Source: Acidobacteriota bacterium (GTDB lineage Bacteria > Acidobacteriota > Holophagae > Holophagales > Holophagaceae). Taken from it: 64,000 bases of DNA. Positions 45,464-50,890 of the stretch are shown here, piece by piece (the stretch's first letter is position 1; every line of letters begins with the position of its first letter). Location of the stretch: contig JAJYRN010000001.1 of assembly GCA_021794095.1 (NCBI GenBank), forward strand, positions 248,001 through 312,000, written 5' to 3'. The notes under the pieces were generated by a model that was given only the letters and a program-made list of their open reading frames with translations, ran no database searches and had not been told where the DNA came from. A program made the translations under genes and the position numbers.

Positions 45464-46576
45464 ATGCCCCTCCTCGGCCGCCTCGATCTCGATGCCCGCC
45501 CGCTGGTCCGGGCCGCCTTGACCACGGTGGGCCTGGGCGTACTGGTGGCCCTGGGCAACCGCGGGGGCCGCGGGCTGGATCCGGCCCTGCTCGGCTACCT
45601 GGTGGCCTGCCTCTTCGCCTGCTTCGGCGTGGCCTACCGCTACTGGGCCTGGGTGGAACGCCCCGCCACCCACATGTACTTCCGCCACACCCTGCGCACC
45701 CTGCGCTCCCGCAAGGCCCTGGCGGCCCTGCTCCGGATGGCCCTCCTGGGGCTGGATCAGCTGCTGCTTCAGCGGTTCATCGGAAAGCGCTCCCTGAAAC
45801 GCTGGGGGGCCCATGCCCTGATCGCCTGGGGCTGCCTGCTGGCCTTCGCGGTGACGGTCCCGCTGGTGTTCGGCTGGGTGCGATTCACGTCCGCCGGCAC
45901 GGATGCCAGCCGCTACCAGGCCTGGTTCTTCGGCTTCCCGGCGGGCAGCTTCCCCCTGGATTCCGCCGCCGCCTTCATCACCTTCCACATGCTGGACTGG
46001 GCGGCCCTGATGGTGGTGGCGGGTTGCACCCTGGCCTTCCTCCGGCGCCGCCAGGACGAGGGCGATTCCGCCACCCAGCGCTTTGATATGGATCTGGCGC
46101 CCCTGCTGCTGCTCATCGCCGTGAGCGTGACGGGCCTGCTGCTCACGGTTTCCGTCTCCTTCATGCAGGGCCGCAACTACGGCACCCTGGCCTTTCTTCA
46201 CGAGCTGACGGTGATCCTGCTCCTGCTGAGCCTGCCCTTCGGCAAGCTCTTCCACATCGTGCAGCGGCCCGCCCAGTTGGGCGTGGCCCTATACAAGGCG
46301 GAAGGCGAGGCGGAGGGCCGCGTGCCCTGCCGGAGCTGCGGCGAGCCCTTCATCCGCGCCAACCAGCTGCGGGATCTCAAGGCCCTCTACACCGCGCTCG
46401 ACCTCGGCGCGGCCACCCACGGGCCGCGCACCCACCACCTGGAACTCTGCCCCCGCTGCAAGCGCCGCCTGCTGGCCAAGGCCCAGTGGCAGCGCATGGG
46501 CGGCGCCTTCGACCCCTTCGCGGACCTGCCCGAGTGGGCGGAACCCATCGCCGATCCCCAGACCCTCCGGAGCTGA
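45464..46576 (+). CDS. NarI-like cytochrome b membrane subunit with zinc-ribbon tail
   Basis: A 370-residue protein with five to seven membrane segments and a cytoplasmic tail. The pair [12 protein letters not shown] and LFHIVQRP places two histidines exactly 18 residues apart, the spacing of two heme ligands in NarI; a further His is in [13 protein letters not shown]. The C-terminal ~80 residues carry CRSC and CPRC, a zinc-ribbon or rubredoxin-like site absent from NarI. It probably oxidises quinol and feeds electrons inward. GGAG precedes the ATG at 45464; the next gene begins 5 nt after its stop. Confidence 0.72.
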
Positions 46577-46581
46577 ACGCC

Positions 46582-48843
46582 ATGGCCATCCTGCCCCAGA
46601 GCCTCGACCAGCTGCGGACCGCCTTCGGCCCCCACCTCAACCTCGCCCCGCCCCATGGTTGGGACGCGGATCCCGTGCCCGACCGCCTGGTGGAGACCCA
46701 CTGCTGCTTCTGCGGCCAGCAGTGCGGCATCAAGCTCAAGGTGAAGGACAACCAGGTGATCGGCTTCGATCCCTGGGAGGAGTTCCCCTTCAACAAGGGC
46801 AAGCTCTGCCCCAAGGGCGTGAAGCGCTACCTCCAGGGCAACCATCCCGACCGCCTCACGAAGGCCCTCCTGCGCACACCGGAGGGCTTCCAGGAGAGCG
46901 ACTGGGAGACAGCCATGGCGCGCACCGTGGCGAAGATCCAGGAGATCCAGGAAAAGTACGGCAAGGACGCCTTCGCCGTGCTGTCGGGCGTTTCGCTCAC
47001 CAACGAGAAGAGCTACCACGTGGGCAAGTTCGCGCGGCTCGGCCTCCAGACGAAGAACCTCGACTACAACGGCCGCCTCTGCATGGTGAGCGCCGGCGCG
47101 GGCAACAAGAAGGCCTTCGGCCTGGACCGCGCCGCCAACAGCTGGGAGGACATCGAGGGCGCCGAGGTGATCTGGGTGGCTGGCTCCAACGTGGCCGAGT
47201 GCTCCCCCATCACCACGGACTACATCTGGCGGGCCCGGGACAAGGGCGCCAAGCTCATCGTGGTGGATCCCCGCATCACGCCCCTGGCGCGCACCGCCGA
47301 CCTGGTGCTGCCTTTGAAGCCTGGCACAGACAGCGCCCTCACCAACGGCATCCTGCACCTGTTGGATAAGTGGAACCTCCTCGACCGTGCCTTCATTGAA
47401 AATCACACGCAAGGTTTCGAAGAAACCTTGCGTGCCGTGAAGGACTGCACGCCCGAGTGGACGAGCCAGATGACCGGCCTGCCCGTGGCGGCCATCGAGA
47501 AGGCGGCCCGGATGTGGGGCGAGGCGAAGACCAGCTTCCTCCTCCACGCCCGCGGCATCGAACACCAGAGCAAGGGCGTGGACAATGTGCTGGGCTGCAT
47601 CAATCTGGTGCTGGCCACGGGCCGCATCGGCCGGCCCAACTGCGGCTACGGCACCATCACCGGCCAGGGCAACGGCCAGGGCGGCCGCGAGCACGGCCAC
47701 AAGTGCGACCAGCTGCCGGGCAACCGCGACATCGAGAACCCCGAGCACCGGAAATACATTTGCGAGGTGTGGGGCTGCACGGATGACGAGCTGCCGCACA
47801 AGGGGATCAGCGCCCAGGAGATCATGAACGCCATCCACGCCGGCGAGATCAAGGGGCTGCTGCTGCTCTGCTTCAATCCCGTCGTGAGCCTGCCGGACAA
47901 CCAGTTCACGGCCGAGGCCCTCGCGAAGCTGGAGTTCTTCGTCGTGCTCGATTTCTTCGCTTCGGAAACGGCCCAGTTCGCGGATGTGATCCTGCCCTCA
48001 GCCCTCCACGAGGAGGACGAGGGCACCAGCACCTCTGTCGAGGGCCGCGTCATCAAGATCAACAAGGCCGTGGAGCCCCCCGGCGATGCCCGGCCCGACT
48101 GGGTGATCCTCAACGAGATCGCCCATCGTCTGGGCCGCGGGAAGTACTTCGACCACTTCACGTCGCCCGAGGCCATCTTCAACGAGCTGCGGGTGGCGTC
48201 GAAGGGCGGCACCGCCGACTACTACGGCATCACCTACGAGAAGATCGAGCGGCAGATGGGCGTGTTCTGGCCCTGTCCGAGCCTCGATCATCCCGGCACA
48301 CCGCGCCTCTTCGAGGGCGGCCAGTTCGCCCATCCCGACGGCAAGGCGCGCTTCGTCCCCACGCCCTGGCGCCCGCCCATGGAGGTGGTGGATGCGGAGT
48401 ATCCCGTGTGGCTCACCTCCGGCCGCGTGGTGTTCCACTACCTCTCGGGCACCCAGACCCGGCGCATCGGCTGGCTGGTGGAGCAATGCCCCAACCCCTA
48501 CCTGGAGATCCATCCGAAGCTCGCCGCGAAGTACGGCCTGGCGGATGGGGACGCCGTGGAGATCACCAGCCGCCGCGGCAGCCTCGTGCTGCCCGCCAAG
48601 GTGGTCATGACCATCCGGCCCGACACGGTCTTCATCCCCTACCACTGGCCGGGGAACCTCGGCGCGAATCGGCTCACGGCCCGCCACCTGGATCCCGTGA
48701 GCAAGATCCCCGAGTTCAAGGTGAGCGCCTGCCAGCTCCGGAAGACCACGCCGGACCGCATTCCCGCCGAGCTCCACGAACTCCAGCGTATGGCCTACGA
48801 GGCGCGCACCAACCAGGCCGCCCTTCCGGGGCAGGTGTTCTGA
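46582..48843 (+). CDS. Molybdopterin oxidoreductase, NasA/NarB-type nitrate reductase catalytic subunit
   Basis: A 753-residue Mo-bis-MGD enzyme. An N-terminal [4Fe-4S] site is formed by Cys41, 44, 48 and 76 ([15 protein letters not shown]). The molybdenum ligand is probably Cys167 in [13 protein letters not shown], the position and wording used by NapA/NasA/NarB. The C-terminal MGD-binding domain has [17 protein letters not shown]. There is no Tat signal, so it works in the cytoplasm. It lacks the C-terminal [2Fe-2S] domain of Klebsiella NasA. Nitrate to nitrite is the likely reaction; another oxyanion cannot be excluded. The stop overlaps the next gene (TGATG). Confidence 0.85.
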
Positions 48844-50017: not shown

Positions 50018-50244
50018 GCCGTCCACCCAACGCCCGCAGGGCCCTCTTCTCGGATGCCGCCCTCGTCGTCGCCCTGCTGATCCTCGGCATCCAGGTCTAC
50101 CTCTTCGAGACGGTGCTGCAGGCCGTGCTGGAAGGGCAGCGAGCGCTGCTGCCGGGCGCCTTCATCGCCTCCCTGGCCCTCACCCTCGTGGCCCTCGCCG
50201 TCGCCTTCAAGGCCCCGCGCCTGGATGACGGCCCCCGGCATTGA
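50014..50244 (+). CDS. Small two-helix membrane protein
   Basis: A 76-residue protein with two membrane segments (ALVVALLILGIQVYLFETVL and FIASLALTLVALAVAF). It overlaps the Rieske gene by ATGA, so it belongs to the operon. Its size and position suggest an accessory subunit that helps hold the membrane complex together; no family is recognised with certainty. Confidence 0.75.
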   Translation: MSRPPNARRALFSDAALVVALLILGIQVYLFETVLQAVLEGQRALLPGAFIASLALTLVALAVAFKAPRLDDGPRH

Positions 50245-50266
50245 TCCCACCCGCCCCGGAGCACCC

Positions 50267-50890
50267 ATGACGCCCCCCGACCGCAAGCCGGATCTCGAAC
50301 TGCTGGAGCCGCAGGTCACCCGCGGCCTGCTGGCGCGCTTCCGCATGACCGCCCTGCTGGGCCGGTTCCCGGAACGCCAGCTCTGGGCCGCCTTCATGTT
50401 CATCAACGGCCTCCTCAGCATTGGCCTCCTGGCGGGCCTGGCGATGCTGACGAAGACCCCCTTCGTCTTCCCATCCCTGGGGCCCACGGCCTTCCTGTTC
50501 TTCTTCACGCCCACCCTGCCCACGGCCAGTCCGCGGCACACGATCTACGGGCACATCATCGGCATCGTCTGCGGCTATGGCGCCCTCTGGCTCATGGGCC
50601 TCCAGCACGCGCCGCCGGCCATGGTCATGGGCGTGACGCCCGCGCGCATCGGCGCCGCCGCCCTCTCTCTGGCCGCGACCGGCGCCCTGATGATCCTCTT
50701 CAAGGCCGCCCATCCCCCGGCAGGCGCGACCACGCTCATCATCTCCCTGGGCATCATCACCAAGCCCCTGAGCCTCGTCATCATGCTGCTGGCCGTGGTC
50801 CTGCTCACCCTCCAGGCCATCGTCATCAACCGCCTCGCAGGCATTGACTACCCGCTCTGGGCCAAGCGGGTGCCCCCGGGCAAGGGCTGA
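50267..50890 (+). CDS. HPP-family membrane protein, possible nitrite transporter
   Basis: A 207-residue protein with four to five membrane segments and the HPP-family motifs FPSLGPTAFLFF, RHTIYGHIIGIVCGYGAL and FKAAHPPAGATTLI. HPP proteins in cyanobacteria and chloroplasts take up nitrite; next to a nitrate reductase this protein may move nitrite. GGAG precedes the ATG at 50267; an in-frame ATG at 50225 would overlap the previous gene. Confidence 0.82.
   Translation: MTPPDRKPDLELLEPQVTRGLLARFRMTALLGRFPERQLWAAFMFINGLLSIGLLAGLAMLTKTPFVFPSLGPTAFLFFFTPTLPTASPRHTIYGHIIGIVCGYGALWLMGLQHAPPAMVMGVTPARIGAAALSLAATGALMILFKAAHPPAGATTLIISLGIITKPLSLVIMLLAVVLLTLQAIVINRLAGIDYPLWAKRVPPGKG

Follow-up and report, generated by a model that had tools for sequence, protein, structure and literature searches.

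Can a molybdoenzyme of an assimilatory lineage serve as the catalytic subunit of a respiratory complex? The question is raised by six open reading frames (ORFs) at 45,464-50,890 on the + strand of a 64,000-nucleotide stretch, hereafter the window, of an Acidobacteriota bacterium (GenBank assembly GCA_021794095.1, contig JAJYRN010000001.1, positions 248,001 to 312,000). Their ends overlap or nearly abut, and they encode a NarI-like cytochrome b (cytb), a NasC-type catalytic subunit, an iron-sulphur (Fe-S) electron-transfer subunit, a Rieske protein, a small DUF6755-like membrane protein and an HPP-family membrane protein (Table 1). The original prediction, made from the sequence alone, had called this run an unusual nitrate reductase operon; the presence, order and tight coupling of the six genes were confirmed by inspection of the ORFs, and the profile matches agree with the earlier domain calls. 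On sequence evidence, the complex is quite probably a quinol:nitrate oxidoreductase that is bound to the membrane, faces the cytoplasm and serves nitrate respiration.

Among all models compared, the catalytic subunit matches the NasC model best (NF047855, 832.9 bits, model positions 18-707). This score is below the curated cut-off of 1100 bits, and the subunit is thus a relative of NasC and not a textbook NasC. With the same model, reference sequences score 358-459 bits (NasA), 457-530 bits (formate dehydrogenases) and 695 bits (Arthrobacter NasC). It is also evident that the subunit is neither NarG-type (narG TIGR01580, 59 bits, cut-off 1084) nor AioA-type (arsenite_ox_L, 172.7 bits, cut-off 359). 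In a maximum-likelihood tree, 43 catalytic subunits fall into a single clade (support 100/99), which Arthrobacter NasC joins (100/100) and which is separate from formate dehydrogenases, NapA and NasA; Arthrobacter NasC is the sole NasC reference in this tree, Bacillus NasC, cyanobacterial NarB and AioA are not included, and the reference branches are long and were flagged by the tree program. The closest named homolog is from Geothrix rubra Red803 (L041; 95% identity). The N-terminal [4Fe-4S] motif consists of Cys41, Cys44, Cys48 and Cys76, with Cys42 beside it. In an alignment with NapA, NasA and formate dehydrogenases, Cys167, followed by Met168 in the motif RLCM, aligns with the Mo-ligand Cys of NapA and formate dehydrogenases and is expected to be the Mo ligand. 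No twin-arginine translocation (Tat) signal was seen in the catalytic subunit. Cys167 in RLCM and the lack of a Tat signal were therefore read correctly at the outset, and so was the assimilatory type of catalysis, which the scores and the tree bear out; the assignment to the NasA/NarB type, however, gives way to NasC, the closest type by both, and the phylogeny called for in the original prediction places the subunit with NasC and not with formate dehydrogenases.

The gene set was followed in a genome scan of 80 loci, those nearest the query, and gene-content counts were taken from the 64 whose flanks extend at least 1.4 kb upstream and at least 1.7 kb downstream. Near the catalytic gene, cytb is found in 60 of these loci, the Fe-S subunit and the Rieske protein in 63 each and all three together in 60. 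Judged by record titles, the clade covers at least 12 phyla, namely Acidobacteriota, Actinomycetota, Melainabacteria, Armatimonadota, Myxococcota, Binatota, Bdellovibrionota, Chloroflexota, Planctomycetota, Bacteroidota, Deinococcota and Omnitrophota, and recurrence of the gene set in twelve phyla is not expected by chance. Many members are metagenome-assembled genomes; the isolates include Geothrix, Chitinophaga japonensis, Lacipirellula limnantheis and a Deinococcus, in which the locus is on a plasmid. The first four genes constitute the conserved core, whereas DUF6755 and HPP are limited to some lineages, so that a conserved unit of six genes, as first envisaged, was rejected. Some Armatimonadota have the modules in a rearranged order or on the other strand, yet close together. 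Two Armatimonadota-type loci in which cytb was not found bear a membrane protein gene immediately upstream of the catalytic gene (L056, 7165-7953; L062, 7212-7946), whose product is, as a guess, TauE/SafE-like.

Genes linked to nitrate are frequent beside the complex. A nitrate-type or anion transporter lies nearby in 54 of the 64 loci, and in 18 loci a NarK-family transporter and cytb share a single open frame; one such fusion matches NCBIfam models for NarK at residues 16-350 and for a NarI/TcuB-like part at residues 582-672. The frame at L074:5744-7993 encodes a NarK-cytb protein of 750 amino acids (aa), and the same join occurs in 17 more loci. Separate NarK genes adjoin many other loci. 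In Omnitrophota (L055), NarK, NrfH, NrfA and NarK are consecutive, in Lacipirellula (L083) NrfH and NrfA lie alongside, and in a member of Bacteriovoracaceae (L087) NosD, ABC-transporter genes and a Crp/Fnr-type regulator are nearby. A NosL candidate in the last locus was not confirmed by Pfam. Within Geothrix, what follows the DUF6755 gene varies among genomes, being HPP in some and a NarK pair in others, which supports a role of HPP in nitrate/nitrite transport. Nitrate as the substrate is well supported by the NarK-cytb fusions together with NarK, NrfHA, NirBD, SLAC1 or HPP alongside. A formate dehydrogenase-like enzyme, or one acting on another oxyanion, is very improbable. The catalytic subunit does reach 602 bits with the formate dehydrogenase model Fdh-alpha (TIGR01591), and solved formate dehydrogenases lead a sequence search of structures; however, the score is under the cut-off of 666 bits, reference formate dehydrogenases score 802-824 bits, the residue after the Mo Cys is Met and not His as in E. 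coli FdhF, and the tree position is outside the formate dehydrogenase clade. Formate and other substrates were rejected on these grounds and on that of the NarK fusions.

The membrane subunit may be of the NarI type. In the homolog alignment, His117, His246 and His264 do not vary wherever these positions are covered, and His175 is kept in 65 of 72 homologs (Asn in the other seven); these four His are candidate ligands of b hemes. His246 and His264 are spaced exactly as are the two His in the last helix of NarI. The match of the window cytb to Pfam NarI is weak (6.2e-3), and 32 of 49 homologs match NarI (best 1.9e-5). No bc-type profile matches cytb, NarI-type matches being found instead, and the window operon lacks genes for a bc-type cytochrome b or for c1. 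A search of solved structures with the single cytb sequence returned nothing, and the cytb profile returned only weak matches to NarI and to the HycF tail. In the AlphaFold2 model (predicted local distance difference test 88.7), VIA-align gave Z values of 9.9-11.1 for NarI and EtfD and 7.7 for the next unrelated row, a margin that, for a helical protein, is supportive of this fold and not conclusive; a Foldseek search with the model gave no significant match. The tail contains a zinc ribbon (C289, C292, C329, C332), and a four-Cys ribbon is retained in most homologs. A weak similarity (E 0.04) connects residues 289-332 with the tail of formate hydrogenlyase subunit 6. The mean net charge of the predicted loops is +8.0 between transmembrane helices 2 and 3, +4.6 in the tail and -0.7 between helices 3 and 4, so that by the positive-inside rule the tail, which would face the Fe-S subunit, is predicted to be cytoplasmic. 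A cytb homolog on the plasmid of Deinococcus sp. NW-56 (L141, 6774-7886) is annotated as an MFS transporter and looks misannotated.

The four-cluster ferredoxin-like protein and the Tat-type Rieske protein of the original prediction were both confirmed. The 16 cluster Cys of the Fe-S subunit show no substitution at the covered positions of the homolog alignment, which fits four [4Fe-4S] clusters. The Rieske protein has a twin-Arg signal (R19 R20), one predicted N-terminal transmembrane helix, the ligands C101, H103, C117 and H120, and the disulphide pair C106/C119; the twin Arg, four ligands and two disulphide Cys are kept in 68 of 68 homologs. Its model finds its best structural match in AioB (Z 15.4, 107 residues, root-mean-square deviation 1.8), with dioxygenase ferredoxins at Z 14.2 and the Thermus bc Rieske at Z 12.0, and the sequence profile puts the Thermus bc Rieske (3e-19) and AioB (2e-18) about level, Thermus being narrowly ahead. 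The match to AioB, the invariant presence of the Tat motif on the Rieske protein only and the derivation of AioA from the NasC lineage in published trees (PMC7331816) would suit a periplasmic active site, the Tat signal of the Rieske protein exporting the catalytic and Fe-S subunits as hitchhikers in the way of AioB for AioA. We give this arrangement little credence: NarK is joined to cytb in 18 loci and lies beside it in many others, and cytoplasmic NirBD lies beside some, all of which fits an inside site, and the positive loops and zinc-ribbon tail of cytb are predicted to face inwards.

A further possibility for the Rieske protein, already considered in the original prediction, is bifurcation as in the bc1 complex, one electron passing via the b hemes to nitrate and the other via the Rieske protein to a periplasmic cytochrome c. 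The Rieske protein and the outer heme are both predicted to lie on the periplasmic side, the bc1-type ligands and disulphide Cys are all invariant, and a genome search found no second Rieske domain in the window's genome; a Rieske protein shared with a bc1 complex was rejected for the last reason. However, no recurring cytochrome c gene was seen in the cluster, a NarI-type donor works without a Rieske protein, and the Ser and Tyr that raise the potential in bc1 are replaced by Gly in 67 of 68 and by Phe in 68 of 68 homologs. In yeast, losing this Ser and Tyr drops the potential by ~130 and 65 mV, and a Phe-type Rieske of high potential is also reported (both in PMC12954380); in arsenite oxidase the Phe-to-Tyr change is without effect (PMC3758308). 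A lower potential of the present Rieske protein is thus only a suggestion, and bifurcation appears unlikely. Equally doubtful is the broader proposal that at least 12 phyla share an additional class of dissimilatory nitrate reductase, in which a NasC-lineage enzyme would be served by a NarI-like cytb and a Rieske protein sharing a periplasmic quinol site with bifurcation, and in which the pairing of Mo and Rieske subunits would have survived from the ancestor of AioAB.

In the quinol:nitrate oxidoreductase that we favor, menaquinol would be oxidized near the periplasmic side of the NarI-like cytb, and its two hemes would hand electrons on to the four [4Fe-4S] clusters of the Fe-S subunit, from which they would reach the [4Fe-4S] cluster of the catalytic subunit and its Cys167-ligated molybdenum-bis-pyranopterin guanosine dinucleotide (Mo-bisPGD) site, where nitrate would be reduced to nitrite. 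HPP, or NarK or SLAC1 elsewhere, would carry nitrate/nitrite over the membrane. The Rieske protein could be an accessory one-electron relay, located next to the outer heme at the periplasmic quinol site; this is the least certain step and is put forward with low confidence. The quinol-linked respiratory complex of the original prediction fits the NasC clade, the NarI-like fold with its conserved His, the NarK fusions, the NrfHA/Nos neighbors and the lack of a detected NarG or nitrite-to-ammonium enzyme in the window's genome. The sequences directly show the gene content, the cofactor ligands, the clade and the links to nitrate transport and nitrite reduction; the activity and quinol as its donor, the orientation and heme content, the order of electron transfer, the release of protons and the conservation of energy are inferred. 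Several points weigh against this account. The sequence similarity of cytb to NarI is weak, the outer heme may be missing or otherwise ligated where His175 is Asn, four Armatimonadota-type loci lack a nearby cytb, no electron partner of the Rieske protein is evident, and sampling was confined to the loci nearest the query. In addition, NirBD adjoins the complex in four loci (L070, L075, L098 and L101), which fits assimilation equally.

These NirBD genes, the NasC-family catalysis and the nasC-Rieske linkage of Bacillus bataviensis, read as assimilatory by Heylen and Keltjens (PMC3475470), would agree with an assimilatory or redox-balancing nitrate reductase whose electron source is the membrane and not NADH or ferredoxin. 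This is rather unlikely, as the cluster adjoins NrfHA and nos genes elsewhere and lies 11-14 kb from NarG on one contig in eight Geothrix genomes, and as the genome of the window offers no known route from nitrite to ammonium. In that genome, which is of a Geothrix-like acidobacterium (2.99 Mb, 99.25% complete), NarG, NrfA, NIR_SIR, NarK-family and NirK have no match, octaheme/HAO-type nitrite reductase not having been searched for. Moreover, it contains no second protein of the NasC/NapA/formate dehydrogenase clade, so that the check for narGHI or nap suggested earlier returned neither NarG nor a NapA-like protein, and the complex is the sole nitrate reductase detected. Assimilation is therefore unlikely there, and the genome favors dissimilatory use. 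Among 41 genomes of the genus, the complex is found in about 22 and NarG in ten, and nine of the ten genomes with NarG also hold the complex. One of the genomes with both (G008; L164, L165; C5:84000-114000) bears an island of the complex and NarGHI with a second Rrf2, two NarK-type transporters, SLAC1 and an NrfD-like subunit, apparently of alternative complex III.

Published surveys describe the NasA/NasC-AioA-NapA clade as having no four-cluster or membrane-anchor partners, and NasC as serving nitrogen assimilation only (PMC7331816, PMC10100899). By its gene content the cluster directly contradicts the former statement, and it makes the latter doubtful. The linkage of nasC and Rieske genes in Bacillus was noted in 2012 (PMC3475470), and Eichorst et al. 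(2018) described two Acidobacteria, reportedly able to reduce nitrate, with nasA and no recognized dissimilatory reductase (PMC5900883). We found no paper describing the present subunit composition in a search that was without most subscription journals and all preprints, so that a prior description is possible. If the proposed function is true, an additional type of nitrate-respiring enzyme has been overlooked, genomes scored as non-respiring for want of narGHI or napAB, including many Acidobacteriota, need re-scoring, and metagenome counts of nasA/nasC can no longer be read as assimilation. It would also open to test the combination of a NarI-like cytochrome and a Rieske protein in one complex, and an older nitrate-reducing counterpart of the Mo-Rieske pairing of arsenite oxidase.

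Table 1. The complex and its neighboring genes in the window.
Feature	Position	Strand	Remarks
YwiC-like membrane protein	44105..44872	+	Pfam YwiC 6.5e-18; conserved 5' of the complex in many Geothrix loci; outside the core
Rrf2-family regulator	44944..45387	+	Pfam Rrf2 1.2e-28; Cys-x6-Cys-x5-Cys motif
NarI-like cytochrome b (cytb)	45464..46576	+	predicted N-in/C-in; His117, His175, His246, His264; C-terminal zinc ribbon
NasC-type Mo-bisPGD catalytic subunit	46582..48843	+	Molybdopterin domains 7.5e-61; 753 aa
Electron-transfer subunit, NarH/DmsB/FdnH-like, 16 invariant Cys	48843..49466	+	Fer4_11 match
Rieske [2Fe-2S] protein, Tat-type	49466..50017	+	Pfam Rieske 6.7e-10
76-aa membrane protein, DUF6755-like	50014..50244	+	Pfam DUF6755 1.1e-4, under family cut-off
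HPP-family membrane protein, proposed nitrate/nitrite transporter	50225..50890 (or in-frame ATG 50270)	+	Pfam TM_HPP 1.9e-24
MoeA-type molybdenum cofactor protein	52124..53263	+	downstream context

In the slot of the 76-aa protein, Deinococcus sp. NW-56 has a clear DUF6755 protein. The Rrf2 gene is immediately 5' of the complex in most Geothrix loci, and its product probably regulates the operon as an Fe-S or NO/redox-sensing protein. Two more Rrf2-like genes are located upstream in the window (37655-38206 and 38548-39012), near a probable 2-oxoacid:ferredoxin oxidoreductase (32953-36513). In Bacillus subtilis, ywiC adjoins the nar genes, and by analogy the YwiC-like gene upstream would also fit a link to nitrate.

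Compared with known systems, the proposed plan is shared with NarGHI in the cytoplasmic Mo subunit, the four-cluster Fe-S subunit, the NarI-like diheme anchor and the NarK partner. However, the present catalytic subunit is NasC-type, with an expected Cys ligand of Mo, whereas NarG has an Asp ligand and about 1200 aa; the complex adds a Rieske protein and a zinc ribbon, and the operon lacks NarJ. NasC of the NasC/NasBC systems in Bacillus and Actinobacteria is the nearest catalytic relative, and a 12-residue motif is common to the present subunit and Arthrobacter NasC; in the Arthrobacter locus NarK adjoins NasC, but cytb, Fe-S and Rieske genes are absent. NasBC receives electrons from NADH through a flavoprotein. 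Similarly, AioAB combines a Mo-bisPGD subunit of a related lineage with a Tat-exported Rieske protein of similar fold with Phe at the Tyr position, but AioA has a [3Fe-4S] cluster and no protein ligand of Mo, and AioAB has neither a four-cluster nor a NarI-like subunit. Haloarchaeal nar clusters and Streptomyces Nar1 with bcc-aa3 likewise tie a nitrate reductase to Rieske/cytochrome b (PMC8301774, PMC7754194, PMC7931247). Their catalysis, however, is NarG-type and their cytochrome b bc-type. The nasC locus of Bacillus bataviensis shares the linkage of nasC to a Rieske gene and differs in that its authors read it as assimilatory (PMC3475470).

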